Source of the DNA: Dehalococcoides sp. JdFR-54
GTDB taxonomy: Bacteria; Chloroflexota; Dehalococcoidia; JdFR-54
Length of the DNA: 57,070 nucleotides
Direction of reading: 5' to 3'
Assembly: GCA_002011475.1 (NCBI GenBank)
Contig: MTNP01000042.1
Span: 1-57,070, forward strand
Positions 35,633 through 42,366 of the stretch are shown in pieces. The notes below the pieces were generated by a model. That model made no database searches. It had not been told where the DNA came from and worked only from the letters and a program-made list of their open reading frames with translations. Made by a program: the position numbers and the translations under genes. Positions within the stretch are counted from its first letter, which is position 1, and each line of letters starts with the position of its first letter.

Positions 35633-36505
35633 TTAGCAGGCGATTCCCGTCTCCCGGGCCACCAGCTCTTTATAAGCGGCCATGAAGCTCACGGTCAGCG
35701 GCCCGGGCCTGCCTGAGCCAATAGCCTTTCCCCCTATTTGGGTCAGGGGCATTACCTCGATAAGGCTATTGGTCAAAAAGGCCTCGTCGGCGCTGAGCAG
35801 GGCCTCCGGCCCGAGTTTGTCCTCCTTGACCGCTACGCCCAGCGAATGGGCCAGCTCCAGGACCACTTGGCGGGTAATGCCGGGCAGGATGCCGCTTTCC
35901 TGGTCGGGGGTGAACAGGCGACCCCCTTTGCCCAGGAAGATGTTGCTCAGGCTGCCCTCGGCCACATGGCCCCGCTCGTTGAGGAGCAAAGCTTCGTCAG
36001 CGCCAGCCCCCCTGGCCTCCTGCCGGGCCAGGAGGCTCAACAGGAAGTTGGCCGATTTAAGATAGGAAAGCGGTGACTGGCTATCCCGCCGCAGGGAAGC
36101 CATCACGGCGCTAAAGCCCCGTTCATAGGCCTCCGGGGAGGGAGGCACGTAGGTTCTGGCCACTATGAAGACAGTGGGCTCCTGGCAGGTAGCCGGGTCC
36201 GGCCTGGGCTCCCCCTCCCCCGCTGATACCGCCAGCCGCACCGAGGCCTCCTCAAGCTGGTTGGCCTCTAATACTTCGACGCAGGCTTGCTTCAGCATGG
36301 CGGCGCTGAGCTTGGAGGCAAAGCCTAATAGCTTGGCAGCCGCCAGGAGTCGCTCAATATGGGCGTTGAGACGGAATATATGGCCCTTGTAGGCCCTCAT
36401 CGTCTCGAAAAGGCCATATCCATAGAGAAAGCCATGATCCAGGGGCGAAATGCGAGCCTGGGCCCGAGGCAGGAGCCGACCATTCAGGTAGACTAACTCT
36501 TCCAC
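35633..36505 (-). CDS. pabC: Aminodeoxychorismate lyase (class IV PLP aminotransferase fold)
   Basis: 290 residues. The class IV signature is present: LDHGFLYGYGLFETMRAYKG at the N-terminus, the PLP lysine in SYLKSANFLLSLLARQEA, and EALLLNERGHVAEGSLSNIF. PabC releases pyruvate and p-aminobenzoate from aminodeoxychorismate. By sequence alone it could be a branched-chain or D-amino acid aminotransferase, but it overlaps pabA by 13 bases in a pabB-pabA-pabC order, which settles the call. Confidence 0.88.
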   Translation of the reverse strand: MEELVYLNGRLLPRAQARISPLDHGFLYGYGLFETMRAYKGHIFRLNAHIERLLAAAKLLGFASKLSAAMLKQACVEVLEANQLEEASVRLAVSAGEGEPRPDPATCQEPTVFIVARTYVPPSPEAYERGFSAVMASLRRDSQSPLSYLKSANFLLSLLARQEARGAGADEALLLNERGHVAEGSLSNIFLGKGGRLFTPDQESGILPGITRQVVLELAHSLGVAVKEDKLGPEALLSADEAFLTNSLIEVMPLTQIGGKAIGSGRPGPLTVSFMAAYKELVARETGIAC

Positions 36506-37077
36506 AGCGGCCCAGCGAAGCGCAGGAAGTTGCGCAATAGGTCATGGCCAGGCGGGGTGAGGATGGACTCAGGGTGGAACTGCACCCCCTCCACCACATA
36601 TTCCCTGTGGCGCACCCCCATGATTATGCCTTCCTCAGTCCGGGCCGTCACCTCCAAACAGGGGGGCAGGCTCTCCGGCTTGATGACCAGGGAGTGATAG
36701 CGTCCCCCGATGAGGGGATTGGGCAGTCCCTCATAAATGGTCTTGCCATCGTGGTGGATGGAGGAGGGCTTGCCGTGCACGGGCACCGGGGCCCGCACGA
36801 TCTCCCCGCCATAGGCATAGCCGATGCACTGGTGTCCCAGGCATACCCCCAGGATGGGCAGCTTGCCCCCGAAGTAGCGCACCACATCGTTGGAGATGCC
36901 CGCCTCCCGCGGGGTGCAGGGGCCGGGGGAGATGACGATATGGGTGGGGGCTAGCCTTTCTATCTCTTCCAGGGTTATCTTATCGTTGCGGAAGACCTCC
37001 GGCTCCCAGCCCAGCTCCCCCAGGTACTGGGCCAGGTTATAGACGAAGGAATCGTAGTTATCGATGACCAGGATCAT
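36493..37077 (-). CDS. pabA: Glutamine amidotransferase subunit of aminodeoxychorismate synthase (PabA/TrpG)
   Basis: Class I amidotransferase that supplies ammonia from glutamine. 194 residues. The nucleophile Cys79 is in ILGVCLGHQC, and the HxE pair is in VQFHPESILT. PabA and TrpG cannot be told apart by sequence; the partner next door is PabB-type, and no trp genes are present. It may serve both enzymes. Overlaps pabB by four bases (ATGA). Confidence 0.92.
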   Translation of the reverse strand: MILVIDNYDSFVYNLAQYLGELGWEPEVFRNDKITLEEIERLAPTHIVISPGPCTPREAGISNDVVRYFGGKLPILGVCLGHQCIGYAYGGEIVRAPVPVHGKPSSIHHDGKTIYEGLPNPLIGGRYHSLVIKPESLPPCLEVTARTEEGIIMGVRHREYVVEGVQFHPESILTPPGHDLLRNFLRFAGPLWKS

Positions 37078-38516
37078 GCCTTGGCCTCCACTGCCACTTT
37101 GGCCGAGAGATTCAGCGCTTGCACCAAGGCCTTGGCCTTGTCCAGGGTCTCCATATACTCGGCCTCGGGCTCCGAATCGTAGACAATGCCACCCCCCACC
37201 TGGAAATAGGCCCTCCCCCCCCTGACAATAAAGGTGCGGATGACGATGCTCAAGTCCATCCCCCCATCGAAGCTGAGGTAACCGATGGAGCCAGTATAGA
37301 CGCTGCGCCGGGTGGGCTCCAGCTCATCGATGATCTCCATAGCCCTGACCTTGGGGGCGCCGGTGACGGAGCCGCCGGGGAAAGAGGCCTTGAGCAGGTC
37401 GATGCGATCCTTATCCGGCCTGAGCTGCCCTACCACCGTGGATACCAGGTGAAACACGGTGGGGTATGTCTCCAGGATGGCCAGCTCCAAGACGCGCACC
37501 GTGCCATAGCGGCACACCCGCCCGATATCATTTCGCTCCAGATCCACTATCATGATGTTCTCGGCACGGTCCTTGACACTGCCCAGAAGCTCCCGGGCCA
37601 GGGCCTGGTCTGCCTCCGGGGTCCTGCCCCGGGGGCGAGTGCCTTTGATGGGCCGGGTCTCCACCCAATCGCCGCTCACCTTCAGGAAACGCTCCGGGGA
37701 GGCGCTGAGGATGGCAGCCTCGGGGTAGCTAAGGAAGGCGGCAAAGGGTGCTGGGTTCACCTGGCGCAGCTTGAGGTAAAGCTCATCGGGGGCTACCCCC
37801 AGTTCAGCCTCAAAACGCTGGGAGATGTTGGCCTGAAAGATATCCCCGGCACAGATATACTCCCGGGTCCTGGCCACCGCCTCCAGGTACTCATCCCGGG
37901 TGAAATTGGCCCTTATTTCGATCTGGGAGTATATCTCCGGCTCATGCCTTGCCGGTATCAATCCCTGAGCACTGGTCAAAAGTCTTCTGGTCTCCTCCAG
38001 CCTCTCTCGGGCCCGATGCAGCCGCCTGGCCTCCTCCAGCTCCGGGAAACCGGTGGAGGCAATATATACTTTATTGGCCAGGTGGTCGAAGGCCACCACC
38101 ACATCATAGAGGCCCAGGTAACATTCGGGCAGTTCCAGGTCATCGATGGCGCTAGAGGGCAGCTTCTCGATGAAGTGGCACAAATCATAGCTGAAGTAGC
38201 CCACCGCCCCGCCCACCAGGGGGATAGGTGCCGGCCCGCTATCCAGGCGATAGGCGTTCAAGGCGTCGCGCAGCACATCGAAGGGGTTGCCCTTTTCGAC
38301 CTGGGCTTCATCGTTTGCCTGGAGCAAGGTGATCTCAGGGCCGCGGCTTTTAAGGACCAAGAAGGGCTCAGCCCCCAGGAAGGAGTACCGCCCCAGCTTG
38401 TGGGGGTCCATGCCGCTATCCAGGAAAAAGCAGAAGGGACGGTCTTTGAAGACCTGGAAGGCTTGGACGGCGCTCAATGGAAGGTCTATCCCCTCGACCA
38501 AGGGTCGCCGGGCCAT
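37074..38516 (-). CDS. pabB: Aminodeoxychorismate synthase component I (PabB)
   Basis: 480 residues. It has the chorismate-binding fold with IKGTRPRGRTPEAD, where the lysine of PIKGT marks PabB (anthranilate synthase has PIAGT), and the C-terminal FPGGSVTGAPKVRAMEIID and IRTFIVRGGRAYFQVGGGIV motifs. It makes 4-amino-4-deoxychorismate for folate. First of three consecutive pab genes, four bases downstream of a small gene that follows herA. Confidence 0.92.
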   Translation of the reverse strand: MARRPLVEGIDLPLSAVQAFQVFKDRPFCFFLDSGMDPHKLGRYSFLGAEPFLVLKSRGPEITLLQANDEAQVEKGNPFDVLRDALNAYRLDSGPAPIPLVGGAVGYFSYDLCHFIEKLPSSAIDDLELPECYLGLYDVVVAFDHLANKVYIASTGFPELEEARRLHRARERLEETRRLLTSAQGLIPARHEPEIYSQIEIRANFTRDEYLEAVARTREYICAGDIFQANISQRFEAELGVAPDELYLKLRQVNPAPFAAFLSYPEAAILSASPERFLKVSGDWVETRPIKGTRPRGRTPEADQALARELLGSVKDRAENIMIVDLERNDIGRVCRYGTVRVLELAILETYPTVFHLVSTVVGQLRPDKDRIDLLKASFPGGSVTGAPKVRAMEIIDELEPTRRSVYTGSIGYLSFDGGMDLSIVIRTFIVRGGRAYFQVGGGIVYDSEPEAEYMETLDKAKALVQALNLSAKVAVEAKA

Positions 38517-38520
38517 GCTT

Positions 38521-38775
38521 TTACGTTTCCCCTTCTCCAGTTTTATGTCTAGCTTTATGCCTTCGGCGTTGGGCCAAAGTATCTATCAGGGCGATAATCG
38601 CGGCCTGGAAGTAGATACCGGCGTGGGCGGCGGGGAAGATGGGGGTTCCGCCCCGCTCTTGGGCCCGTCGCTTCTCAAAGGCCTCCTCCACCAGGCGGAG
38701 CCACCTCTGCCTGAAGCCGATGTGGCGCTCCTCGGCCTGGGGCGGCTCTGGCTTCGGTTCTTTGTTCTCGGCCAT
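38521..38775 (-). CDS. 84-residue protein coupled to herA
   Basis: Starts at the ATG at 38775, overlapping the herA stop as ATGA. The sequence MAENKEPKPEPPQAEERHIG is followed by a charged helical segment (RQRWLRLVEEAFEKRRAQERG) and a more hydrophobic stretch (AGIYFQAAIIALIDTLAQRR). No signal peptide or known motif. The tight coupling suggests a partner of the NurA/HerA machinery rather than of pabB, four bases further on. Function unknown. Confidence 0.65.
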   Translation of the reverse strand: MAENKEPKPEPPQAEERHIGFRQRWLRLVEEAFEKRRAQERGGTPIFPAAHAGIYFQAAIIALIDTLAQRRRHKARHKTGEGET

Positions 38776-40403
38776 CAACCATCCCCCCACAGCCTGTCTA
38801 TATCTGCCTCGGCCTGCCTCTTGAGCTCGGCGGTATCCTTGAAGCCAAAGCTCTTATAGGATTCGGCAGAGCCATACTCCCGAACCTTCACCACCACCGG
38901 CACAGGCAGGGCGTGCCCGAAGATGAGCGCCTGCTGCTTGGTCTCCAGCCGGGAAAGCACCGACCTCAGCTCCCCGCGACCTGGGGTGCCGGTGAGCACC
39001 GCCTCGATATCCCGCTCGTTGTCTAAGAGACAGGTTATCTTGGTGCCCAGCTGGGACATGACCTCGTCGTCGATGCCACTGGGGCGCTGGTCGATGACCA
39101 GCAGGGTCACATTATACTTGCGCATCTCCCGGGCGATGGTGCCGAAGATGGTCTGGTCAGCCACCTGGGGGTTGAGGAACTTGTGGGCCTCCTCGATGGT
39201 GATGACCAGGGGGCGGGGGAGGGGCCTGTCGGCGCCCATGGCTTCCTCGGTGCGCGCCCGGTACTGGGCGTGGATGCGCCGGGTGAGCAGGTTGGCCACC
39301 AGAATGTAGGCAGTGATGTCGGTATAGCGGCCGAACTCGAGGACCACATTTATCCCCCGCTCTAGGTACTCCAGGATGCGTCTCACCGAATTGTCGGCGG
39401 CCTGGGGCACCAGAAAGGCCAGCCTTCTCAGGGTGTCGAGGCGGCGGTGCAGGGAGGCCAGGGTAGCCTCGTGCTCGCCCAGGCTATTGGCCAGGGAATT
39501 CAGGTCCTCTCGGCTTTCCAGGGCCAGAAAGCTCTCCAGCCACCGTTGGCCGAAGCGCCGCGCCAGCCGGTAGCAGGCCTGTTTTGCCGCCTCGGTGAGG
39601 CCCAGGGTCTCGCTCAGGAGCTCCACATCCTCGGGCTCGATCTCGTCGTAACCGATGTTGACCACGAAGTCGGTGCTCACCCCCCGTCGCCGCGAGCTCT
39701 CCTCGTCCAAGGTGAACACCGCTACCTTGGAGGGGAAAAGCTGTTTCAAGGCCTTCACCTTGTAGCCATGCTCGCTGCGGCCCTCCCAGCCATATTCATT
39801 GTGCATATCGAAGACCAAGCTGGAGGCCACATCCTTCTGGAGCAGGCCCACCAGGAGCAGGCGGGTGAGGAAGGTCTTGCCGGTGCCGCTCTTGCCGAAG
39901 ATGCCATTGGAGCGCATCACAAACTGGGCCAGGTCGAGGCAGACCTTTGTCTCCATATCCAGGGGGTTGCCGATGTAGAAAAGCCTCTCGTCCTCACTGC
40001 CGAAGACCAGCTCGATATCCCGCTGGGAGGCCTCCCGCACCACCGAGAAATGGGCGGGCACCGTCTTCACCGGCTGGGGGCCTTCCCCGGGGAGGCCCAG
40101 CATTTCGCCCAGGGCAAGCTGGGGCATGACATGAAGGCTGCCATAGGTGCTGCTGCCCTTGATGACCTCGGCGATGAAGGGGTCGGAGAGGTCGGGCGGG
40201 GCCACCGACACCCGGGGGTCGATGGCCCCTAGGCTGACATCGGTGACCATACCCAGGAAGCGTTGCCGCTCGCCCTCGATGGTGACATAGCGGCCTACCG
40301 CCATATCCTCCACCGAGATGGCGTTATCCAGCTTGACCTCGACCCCCTTGGTCAGGGAGCCGGAGACCACGATGCCCAGTTGCTTAGGTGCTTCCTGGTT
40401 CAC
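38775..40403 (-). CDS. herA: HerA-type hexameric DNA translocase/helicase
   Basis: 542 residues. An N-terminal HAS-barrel (QLGIVVSGSLTKGVEVKL, about 8-60) is followed by the ATPase: Walker A GKSGTGKT at 170-177, Walker B LVITIEEAHKF, and the family stretch DQRPSGIDDEVMSQLGTK. HerA pumps DNA and works with the NurA nuclease to resect DNA ends in archaea; bacterial copies are known. The GTG start overlaps the upstream gene stop (GTGA). Confidence 0.92.
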   Translation of the reverse strand: MNQEAPKQLGIVVSGSLTKGVEVKLDNAISVEDMAVGRYVTIEGERQRFLGMVTDVSLGAIDPRVSVAPPDLSDPFIAEVIKGSSTYGSLHVMPQLALGEMLGLPGEGPQPVKTVPAHFSVVREASQRDIELVFGSEDERLFYIGNPLDMETKVCLDLAQFVMRSNGIFGKSGTGKTFLTRLLLVGLLQKDVASSLVFDMHNEYGWEGRSEHGYKVKALKQLFPSKVAVFTLDEESSRRRGVSTDFVVNIGYDEIEPEDVELLSETLGLTEAAKQACYRLARRFGQRWLESFLALESREDLNSLANSLGEHEATLASLHRRLDTLRRLAFLVPQAADNSVRRILEYLERGINVVLEFGRYTDITAYILVANLLTRRIHAQYRARTEEAMGADRPLPRPLVITIEEAHKFLNPQVADQTIFGTIAREMRKYNVTLLVIDQRPSGIDDEVMSQLGTKITCLLDNERDIEAVLTGTPGRGELRSVLSRLETKQQALIFGHALPVPVVVKVREYGSAESYKSFGFKDTAELKRQAEADIDRLWGDG

Positions 40404-40984
40404 GCCCTGATCTTCCTCAATATAGTGTCCAGGCGGTGCAGGTCTCCGGCCAGGAGCAGCGCCAGCTCCTTGCCCGCCGCCACCAGAAAACCACGGCGGT
40501 CTTCCCGGGCAAGGCTTAGCTGACGGAGGGTGGCCGCTATCAACTCCTCGGCGGGCACCGGCCCCCCGGCTTCGACCAGAAGGCTCAGGAAATCAAAGGA
40601 ACGGCTGAACTCGACTATTTCATCGTCGCCGCAGAGATAGACGAAGCTATGAAGGTAGGGCGGTAAGGGCGGCAAATATTGCTTGAGCTGGCCCCCCTCC
40701 CGATAGCCCACGATTAGGGTCGAAAAGACGGTGCGCAGGAGGCGGGCCAGTTGGGGGTGCTCCCGATAGATGTCCTCCGCCTCCGCCACCTCCCTGCCCC
40801 GGGCGATAGGGCGGCGCCCCGGCTCAAGGCTTGAGGTAGCGGCATGGGCCACCACGCCAAAGACCTCCCCCTGGGCATCCTGGCAGCGGACCAGGCTGCC
40901 CAGGGGAGGGGGCTGGTGCAGCTCATAGCACTGGGCGGTGAATGAGCTGCTTGAGGACTCGATGACCTCGCCTATCCTGGTGAT
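40400..40984 (-). CDS. HAS-barrel protein between nurA and herA; start codon appears to be ATC
   Basis: The first normal start (GTG 40855) would remove a clear N-terminal barrel whose frame remains open to 40990: GEVIESSSSSFTAQCYELHQ, then LGSLVRCQDAQGEVFGVVAH. The likely initiation site is ATC 40982-40984, after AAGGGGTGAGGTCAG, giving 194 residues beginning as (M)TRIGEVIES. The rest includes SSLEPGRRPIARG and YLHSFVYLCGDDEIVEF. HAS barrels occur on HerA and related ATPases, so this is probably an assembly factor of the NurA/HerA complex. A one-base sequence error or frameshift at the start is an alternative. Confidence 0.72.
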   Translation of the reverse strand: MTRIGEVIESSSSSFTAQCYELHQPPPLGSLVRCQDAQGEVFGVVAHAATSSLEPGRRPIARGREVAEAEDIYREHPQLARLLRTVFSTLIVGYREGGQLKQYLPPLPPYLHSFVYLCGDDEIVEFSRSFDFLSLLVEAGGPVPAEELIAATLRQLSLAREDRRGFLVAAGKELALLLAGDLHRLDTILRKIRA

Positions 40985-40985
40985 C

Positions 40986-41062
40986 TGACCTCACCCCTTC
41001 TTTCGACCTGGGTGTCTATCTCGGGTGAAATGCCTACGGCTATCAGTATGACCTCACCCCTT
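40986..41062. repeat. Two copies of a 14-base direct repeat, 63 bases apart
   Basis: TGACCTCACCCCTT occurs at 40986-40999 and 41049-41062 on the plus strand. On the transcribed minus strand it reads AAGGGGTGAGGTCA, which resembles a ribosome-binding site; the second copy supplies the ribosome site of the HAS-barrel gene. The flanks of the two copies are otherwise unlike. Confidence 0.6.
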
Positions 41063-41065
41063 GTA

Positions 41066-41081
41066 TCCCCTCACCGGGGGA
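41066..41081 (+). terminator. Possible plus-strand terminator-like stem with T-run
   Basis: TCCCC (41066-41070) pairs with GGGGA (41077-41081) and is followed by GTTTTT. The form is that of a short rho-independent terminator on the plus strand, but no plus-strand gene precedes it, so it may block antisense transcription or be accidental. Confidence 0.3.
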
Positions 41082-41089
41082 GTTTTTAT

Positions 41090-41110
41090 AAGAGGGGCTG
41101 CGCCCCTCTT
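41090..41110. repeat. Perfect 9-bp inverted repeat downstream of nurA
   Basis: AAGAGGGGC (41090-41098) and GCCCCTCTT (41102-41110) flank a three-base loop TGC. It lies 45 bases after the nurA stop on the nurA message. No U-run follows, so an attenuator, message stabiliser or repetitive extragenic element are all possible. Confidence 0.55.
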
Positions 41111-41154
41111 GGACGCCCCGAAAGCGGGAGGCAATAGCCCGGATAAGGCCCATG

Positions 41155-42366
41155 CTAAATCCACCTCAATCTCTTGCTCAGGCGTTTGGTGGAGCTGGCA
41201 CAGGGCAGGCGCCGCTCCTCCAGCATCTGCTCCACCAGCTCCTGGAACTGGCCCCGGTCGGCGGCGGTGACCACCGCTTGCTCGTGGGCCTCGCTCAAGG
41301 CCACCGGGTAGCCCAGCCCCCGCCGGCACTGGTCATAGACCAGGGCATGAGCCAGCCCCAGCAAATCCCCGTCCTCGGCCACCCAGCGGGGCATCTCCAC
41401 TCGGCCTATCTCCTCGCCCACCTTCATATAGAAGAAGCAGACCTCGTGCTCCCGATACCGCTCCCTCACCACCGAGGAGCGACTGAGGAAGACGTCGGAG
41501 CGCTCGCCTTCCTCGAGAAGCCTCAGGAACAGGTCGCTATCCAGCACGCCGGCCACCTTATCGCAGGGACGCCCCCGAGAGGCCCGGCGCCCAGGGCAAA
41601 AGCGGTCACAGTCCGCCGGCTCGTAGGGGCAGAGGGCCACCCGGAGCACATTGACCACCTCGGTGCTCCGCGGGAAGCTTATGTAGCTGGCCAGGGCCCT
41701 TTTCGACCTGGAGGTCAGACCCTTGAGTTTGTCCAGACATTTTAGGAAGCTATTGTCCAGAAGGGCTTCCCTGACGAAGTCTCCATATCTCTGGCTGGCC
41801 AGGCCCCACAGTATCAGAGAGCCATCCAGCAGGGCCAGGGCTGGCATCGCCTCATCCATTCCCTCGACGAGGCTGGCCAGGGCCCAACACTCCTCGACGC
41901 TGCGCCTGATGCCCAGAAGGGCACCCTCTATGGGCTCCTCGCGGTTGCTGGAGGGATCACTGAGCATCAGATCCGATTCCTCAGAATACAAGGCAGGCTG
42001 GCTACGGAGAACGGCTTTAGGTTCAGCCCCATATTGGAGCTGCACCAATCCCATATTCAGCAGATAGCAGCGCGCCGGGCTATGGCGGTCGACATCGATA
42101 TGTGAGCCATCTACCGCCACCACAGCGAAGGCCTGGGGCAGGGGTGGCGGGGCATGACGCCCATCGAGCCCCTGCCCCAGCCCAGCCACCAGCCAGGTGG
42201 TATTGCTGGCAGCGATCTTCTGCTTCAAGGAGGGAAGGGACTGGGCTTGCTGGGCCAGGGTCTCCCGGGCGAAGGCCAATCTCTGGGCCTGCTGGGCCCG
42301 CTCCCGGCCCAGCCTGTCCACCATGCCCTCTACCTGGGCCGCAACCAGGGTAAAATCCAGGGGCAT
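41155..42366 (-). CDS. nurA: NurA domain nuclease
   Basis: 403 residues. NurA is a manganese-dependent 5'-3' nuclease that trims DNA ends together with HerA. The active-site aspartates are visible in FAVVAVDGSHIDVDR (Asp86) and ALALLDGSLILWG (near residue 200). The N-terminal 50 residues are predicted coiled coil (RERAQQAQRLAFARETLAQQ). First gene of the nurA / HAS-barrel / herA / 84-residue operon, although 170 bases with repeats separate it from the second gene. Confidence 0.88.
   Translation of the reverse strand: MPLDFTLVAAQVEGMVDRLGRERAQQAQRLAFARETLAQQAQSLPSLKQKIAASNTTWLVAGLGQGLDGRHAPPPLPQAFAVVAVDGSHIDVDRHSPARCYLLNMGLVQLQYGAEPKAVLRSQPALYSEESDLMLSDPSSNREEPIEGALLGIRRSVEECWALASLVEGMDEAMPALALLDGSLILWGLASQRYGDFVREALLDNSFLKCLDKLKGLTSRSKRALASYISFPRSTEVVNVLRVALCPYEPADCDRFCPGRRASRGRPCDKVAGVLDSDLFLRLLEEGERSDVFLSRSSVVRERYREHEVCFFYMKVGEEIGRVEMPRWVAEDGDLLGLAHALVYDQCRRGLGYPVALSEAHEQAVVTAADRGQFQELVEQMLEERRLPCASSTKRLSKRLRWI

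Follow-up and report, generated by a model that had tools for sequence, protein, structure and literature searches.

A free-standing HAS-barrel protein accompanies NurA and HerA in Chloroflexota and on haloarchaeal plasmids and is probably a third component of their DNA-end-processing machine

The window analysed here is the whole stretch of 57,070 nucleotides from contig MTNP01000042.1 of Dehalococcoides sp. JdFR-54 (GCA_002011475.1). Its genome (1.69 Mb, 94% complete) is that of a Dehalococcoidia-like member of the Chloroflexota, and in a herA-centred comparison the closest named loci are those of Dehalococcoidia/Chloroflexi metagenome-assembled genomes. The locus under study encodes a NurA-family nuclease, a HerA translocase and, between them, a separate HAS-barrel protein that is probably a dedicated subunit of the same machine. 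An operon of nurA, a HAS-barrel gene, herA and an 84-residue open reading frame (ORF) had been described in the original prediction, and all four ORFs are indeed present on the minus strand. They are transcribed in the order nurA, HAS gene, herA, 84-codon ORF, followed by a trpE/pabB-like gene (start at 38516):

41155..42366, minus strand: nurA, a 403-residue NurA-family nuclease (PF09376, E=2.8e-28; 31-sequence alignment)
40985..41154, minus strand: nurA-HAS intergenic spacer of 170 nucleotides, holding an imperfect 19-nucleotide direct repeat
40400..40984, minus strand: HAS protein of type 1, about 194 residues (AlphaFold2 model, Foldseek, 38-sequence alignment)
38775..40403, minus strand: herA, 542 residues (PF01935, E=6.7e-32; PF09378, E=5.2e-7; 34-sequence alignment)
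38521..38775, minus strand: orphan ORF of 84 residues, flanked by herA and the trpE/pabB-like gene, with coding-like codon usage and no family match

The HAS gene and herA overlap by 4 nucleotides, and the 84-codon ORF begins on the final base of the herA stop (TGATG). No in-frame ATG, GTG or TTG lies ahead of the conserved N-terminus of the HAS protein (ITRIGEV); from the sequence, its start is most likely the ATC codon at 40984, with GAGG upstream. Because the gene is without a canonical start, a standard ORF call (40400-40855) drops about 43 residues of the barrel. Two relatives also have no canonical HAS start, with ATC in L033 (1818) and ATA in L043 (9250), each with GGAGG upstream, and weak start codons in three lineages may limit the dose of the protein. 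The spacer ahead of the gene carries the 19-nucleotide direct repeat (40986-41067) as two copies with 89% identity, 63 nucleotides apart, one of which overlaps the presumed ribosome-binding site.

The HAS protein scores 18.7 bits against PF09378, under the Pfam gathering cut-off of 25.2. Its AlphaFold2 model, built from a 38-sequence alignment, has a predicted local distance difference test (pLDDT) score of 93.9 and a predicted template modelling (pTM) score of 0.89. Up to about residue 120 (barrel at approximately 5-120) the model has seven strands and two short helices, followed by a helical C-terminal domain (122-195), and both ATPase motifs and an ATPase core are absent. All 50 PDB matches listed by Foldseek for this model are HerA-family entries (best E 2e-7, 120-180 aligned columns) and include the T. 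kodakarensis HerA-NurA complex; a viral fold library gave no significant match, and a sequence search of the PDB with the HAS profile found nothing. Judged by its predicted fold, the protein is best seen as a HerA N-terminal module in which a small helical domain stands in for the ATPase core. PF09378 has the same fold as its N-terminal 120 or so residues, but in HerA that fold is a domain of the ATPase, whereas here it forms part of a protein of its own, whose C-terminal domain is helical.

By sequence, the NurA and HerA of the window are ordinary members of their families. NurA scores 99.5 bits against PF09376 (cut-off 21), covering positions 2-254 of the 254 in the profile. The motifs D86-G-S and D181-G-S, together with D276, E324 and E359, are invariant or nearly so in the 31-sequence alignment, and we take these acidic residues to be catalytic from what is known of the family. 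A profile of window-type NurA matched no solved NurA among PDB sequences. HerA combines a DUF87/HerA central domain (PF01935, 111.8 bits) with an N-terminal HAS barrel of its own (PF09378, 30.1 bits). It is predicted to be a DNA translocase of the hexameric type, with the Walker A motif GKSGTGKT and the Walker B-like motif ITIEEAH, the P-loop and E404-E405 being conserved across 34 aligned sequences. As HerA retains its own barrel, the HAS protein is an additional protein. An origin as a fragment or frameshift of herA was ruled out: HerA keeps its barrel, and about 100 distinct loci have HAS as an ORF of its own.

The HAS protein follows NurA and HerA across genomes. Our sampling covered Chloroflexota genomes and a plasmid collection, and the co-occurrence statistics ignore shared ancestry. 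Among 60 genomes of the same class, HAS was found in 39, the HerA type of the window in the identical 39 and NurA in 36 of these; the three HAS-positive genomes without a detectable NurA (G005, G039 and G040) are fragmented assemblies, and the genomes with HAS include complete single-contig ones of 1.4-1.9 Mb. Eight complete or near-complete relatives are without NurA, HAS and the HerA type of the window (G014, G016, G020, G047, G049, G050, G053 and G059), and long AddAB/RecB-like frames are present in their place in most of the eight. The class also has a third arrangement, at L070 (G001) and L071 (G042), with a distant NurA-like gene, a HerA-like one and an Mre11/SbcD-like one.

In NurA genomes without this HAS family (type 1), many of the sampled nurA loci had, after nurA, a protein of about 200 residues; herA often came next, and rad50 before. 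We call this protein type-2 HAS. Profile-profile comparison of the two types with hhalign gave a probability of 95.5% (E=1.4e-8, 157 columns), and in three genomes matches to the type-2 profile coincide in position with the type-1 genes (E 3e-5 to 7e-4). In the AlphaFold model of type 2 (pLDDT 83, pTM 0.80), strands and helices follow one another as in type 1, and here too the PDB matches belong to the HerA family. Types 1 and 2 are thus homologous, divergent forms, as hhalign, the cross-profile matches and the predicted folds indicate. A Pfam scan of five type-2 members matched no model.

In a phylum sample of 151 Chloroflexota genomes, each at least 90% complete, strong type-1 HAS was detected in 59, type-2 HAS in 37 and NurA in 99; no genome had both HAS forms (0/151). 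A HAS protein of either type was present in 94 of the 99 NurA genomes, NurA was present in 94 of the 96 HAS genomes, and 50 genomes had neither (Fisher p about 1e-31, kinship ignored). NurA was not found in two HAS genomes, G082 and G202. In the latter (L188) the HAS frame is broken, possibly by decay that followed loss of the nuclease.

Gene linkage points to both partners. In herA-centred named loci with enough room, HAS lies at most 320 nucleotides upstream of herA in 54 of 73, mostly with gaps below 80 nucleotides and with three overlaps, and nurA lies at most 400 nucleotides upstream of HAS in only 20 of 54 loci where this could be tested. Seventeen genomes have no HAS at the herA locus; 16 of them have it elsewhere, in 13 cases on the same strand as nurA and less than 1 kb from it. 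Type-2 HAS located away from nurA is directly upstream of herA in 12/12 loci. HAS therefore remains with whichever partner is left, as a protein in contact with both NurA and HerA would be expected to do. The co-occurrence asked for in the original prediction is borne out for HAS, with a near one-to-one relation to NurA and HerA across Chloroflexota and linkage kept to a nearby partner.

Type-2 HAS is also found on four haloarchaeal plasmids, between nurA and herA, where it is annotated as "hypothetical protein". The plasmids of Natrinema zhouii, archaeon DL31 and Halobaculum marinum have the order mre11-like, rad50-like, nurA, HAS, herA; on the Halorussus plasmid the locus is cut by the start of the record, and the end of nurA, HAS and herA are present in that order. 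Linkage to rad50 is also seen in type-2 Chloroflexota loci, and mre11-rad50 lies upstream in the three haloarchaeal loci that are complete in the record. Type-1 HAS had no match in the plasmid collection, type-2 HAS matched only haloarchaea there, and phages gave no match to type 2.

We propose, with a probability of about 0.62, that the locus encodes a three-component NurA-HAS-HerA machine for DNA-end processing in which HAS is a dedicated third subunit. In solved complexes NurA rests on the HAS domains of HerA, with a 2:6 stoichiometry in Deinococcus (PMC9960219). In T. kodakarensis, NurA is touched by every alpha-1 helix of the HerA HAS domains and by the loops ahead of them (PMC12977600), and it is the hexameric form of HerA that NurA selects in the archaeal system (PMC5715905). 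Since the HAS domains of HerA dock NurA in these complexes, the free barrel would most simply be an adaptor or assembly factor at the junction between the HerA crown and NurA. In this mechanism, a NurA dimer docks on the HAS-barrel crown of the HerA hexamer, as it does in the solved complexes, and the free HAS protein, with its barrel of the same kind, would bind at the crown/NurA junction and bridge the two enzymes, while its helical domain would contact NurA, HerA or another factor. We infer a physical complex of the three proteins, a binding site for HAS and an effect of HAS on activity. That a free barrel sets the ratio of nuclease to hexamer, as first suggested, is a plausible prediction.

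The whole machine would resect or degrade double-strand DNA ends in lineages mostly without an AddAB/RecBCD-type enzyme. The genome of the window has only Cas4-sized PDDEXK_1 matches and no long AddAB/RecB-like frame, and such frames occur in 8 of 39 HAS-positive and 12 of 21 HAS-negative relatives (p=0.009, kinship ignored). Their scarcity in HAS-positive genomes fits a main role of the locus in end processing. At a broader level, we hold it an even bet that a large class of NurA-HerA systems, across Chloroflexota and in haloarchaea, has three components. In this class an ATPase-less HerA-barrel protein, in two anciently divergent forms, would be an obligate adaptor setting assembly or which strand the nuclease chooses. 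Its annotation as hypothetical and a score below the Pfam cut-off would explain why it has been overlooked.

Several points weigh against a dedicated third subunit. The two-component NurA-HerA systems of Deinococcus and Thermococcus work without a free HAS protein (PMC9960219, PMC12977600), and neither HAS profile matches the NurA-HerA-Mre11-like operons at L070 and L071; given that both do without HAS, the subunit is not required for the chemistry. HAS was not detectable in five NurA genomes (G077, where the NurA match is weak, G086, G105, G147 and G155), and shared ancestry may account for part of the association between NurA and HAS. Profile-profile scores between HAS and HerA are weak (E about 0.02), so their kinship rests on predicted structure. 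Finally, the block equivalent to HerA alpha-1 is not conserved above the rest of the HAS barrel; conservation is spread over the barrel, and the idea of this block as a specially conserved docking element is not supported.

The main rival, which we consider unlikely, is that HAS mimics HerA and sequesters the NurA dimer as an inhibitor or chaperone, keeping the nuclease idle until HerA displaces it. A protein with the HerA barrel and no ATPase core would suit such a role, and HAS directly follows nurA in many linked loci and in Anaerolineae with herA elsewhere. A pure inhibitor predicts linkage to nurA, however, and HAS is equally often linked to herA without an adjacent nurA (it abuts herA in 54/73 loci, and in 12/12 of the unlinked type-2 loci).

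Less probable still is that the locus is a HerA-based anti-phage or DNA-import/donation system, comparable to SIR2-HerA, DUF4297-HerA, TdpAB or Thermus TdtA, and not housekeeping repair. HerA paralogues among the PDB matches serve such roles, the type-2 copies sit on haloarchaeal plasmids, and the authors of the T. kodakarensis study, whose complex cuts both strands, suggest roles such as the destruction of foreign DNA (PMC12977600). However, PADLOC matched HerA only, with no match for NurA, HAS or the small ORF. The locus is usually present in one copy per genome across many families of the class, without the patchy pattern of defence islands, and its neighbours are housekeeping genes (in the window, genes for aromatic amino acids/p-aminobenzoate; in many loci, dehydrogenase genes on the downstream side). 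The antiphage complexes SIR2-HerA, DUF4297-HerA and TdpAB resemble the window in pairing a HerA translocase with a partner protein, but they use other partner enzymes and no NurA, and a free HAS subunit is absent among the PDB titles listed. That HAS is merely co-inherited and acts elsewhere, for example as an SSB- or Rad50-facing factor in a shared repair regulon, is very improbable: linkage by itself cannot prove contact and rad50 is also linked in type-2 loci, but HAS shares the barrel of HerA specifically, and type-1 loci keep it with nurA or herA, with no adjacent rad50 seen among the neighbours in the window.

Returning to HAS as a third subunit, the closest described systems have two proteins. 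The NurA-HerA pair is best known from archaea, as the original prediction noted and in agreement with the literature (PMC12977600). The archaeal mre11-rad50-nurA-herA operon of Sulfolobus and Thermococcus shares with the window the NurA and HerA families and docking through the HAS barrel, and shares linkage to rad50 with the type-2 loci; the archaeal papers describe two proteins, whereas the window and the haloarchaeal plasmids have an extra HAS protein between nurA and herA (PMC12977600, PMC5715905). In Deinococcus radiodurans, as in the window, a bacterial NurA nuclease and a HerA translocase are encoded together and the HerA HAS barrels dock NurA, but the complex is described as NurA and HerA at 2:6, with no free HAS protein reported (PMC9960219). 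How NurA-HerA resects one strand is disputed: in vitro, both strands are cut by the Thermococcus complex, a result that the authors of that study see as difficult to square with end resection (PMC12977600). If our proposal is correct, NurA-HerA complexes from HAS-bearing lineages that are studied without HAS are incomplete, and HAS is a direct candidate for the factor controlling assembly and the choice of strand. The proposal also offers a hypothesis of function for a widespread hypothetical protein of Chloroflexota and haloarchaea. In the open literature we found no report in which NurA is tied to a free HAS-barrel protein; such a mention may already exist, the founding description of the HAS barrel lying outside that search. 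The barrel was reportedly defined by Iyer et al. in 2004 (Nucleic Acids Research).

The 84-residue product of the last ORF had been put forward as a coupled partner of the other three proteins. The coupling holds in the layout, as the ORF touches the herA stop, and a conserved partnership does not. Codon usage in the ORF is gene-like (0.31 bits/codon, compared with 0.38 +/- 0.15 for real genes and a wrong-frame 95th percentile of 0.22), so it is probably a real gene. It matched nothing in Pfam, NCBIfam, PADLOC or PHROG. A search of 393 genomes of the class recovered only the copy in the window (E=2.5e-53), the next match having E=1e-3 and internal stops. In the other loci examined, unrelated genes follow herA, and L046 has a trpE/pabB-like gene there without the ORF. 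The ORF was therefore rejected as a conserved partner, and with no credible homologue in the class it is a lineage-specific orphan outside the module.

The NurA of the window also has a cysteine cluster (C246, C253, C257 and C268, spaced C-x6-C-x3-C-x10-C) that is nearly invariant in Dehalococcoidia NurA. A loose form of the pattern is present in 48 of 60 strong type-1 NurAs and in 0 of the 33 more distant NurAs examined, and from its sequence the cluster may bind zinc or an iron-sulphur centre. Neither mre11 nor rad50 is adjacent to the locus in the window, whose neighbours are of the trpE/pabB type or unrelated. Downstream, from 35633 to 38516, lie trpE/pabB-like, glutamine amidotransferase and aminotransferase (pabC/ilvE-like) genes whose ends overlap, and trpE- or trpG-like genes also come after herA in L046 and L035.

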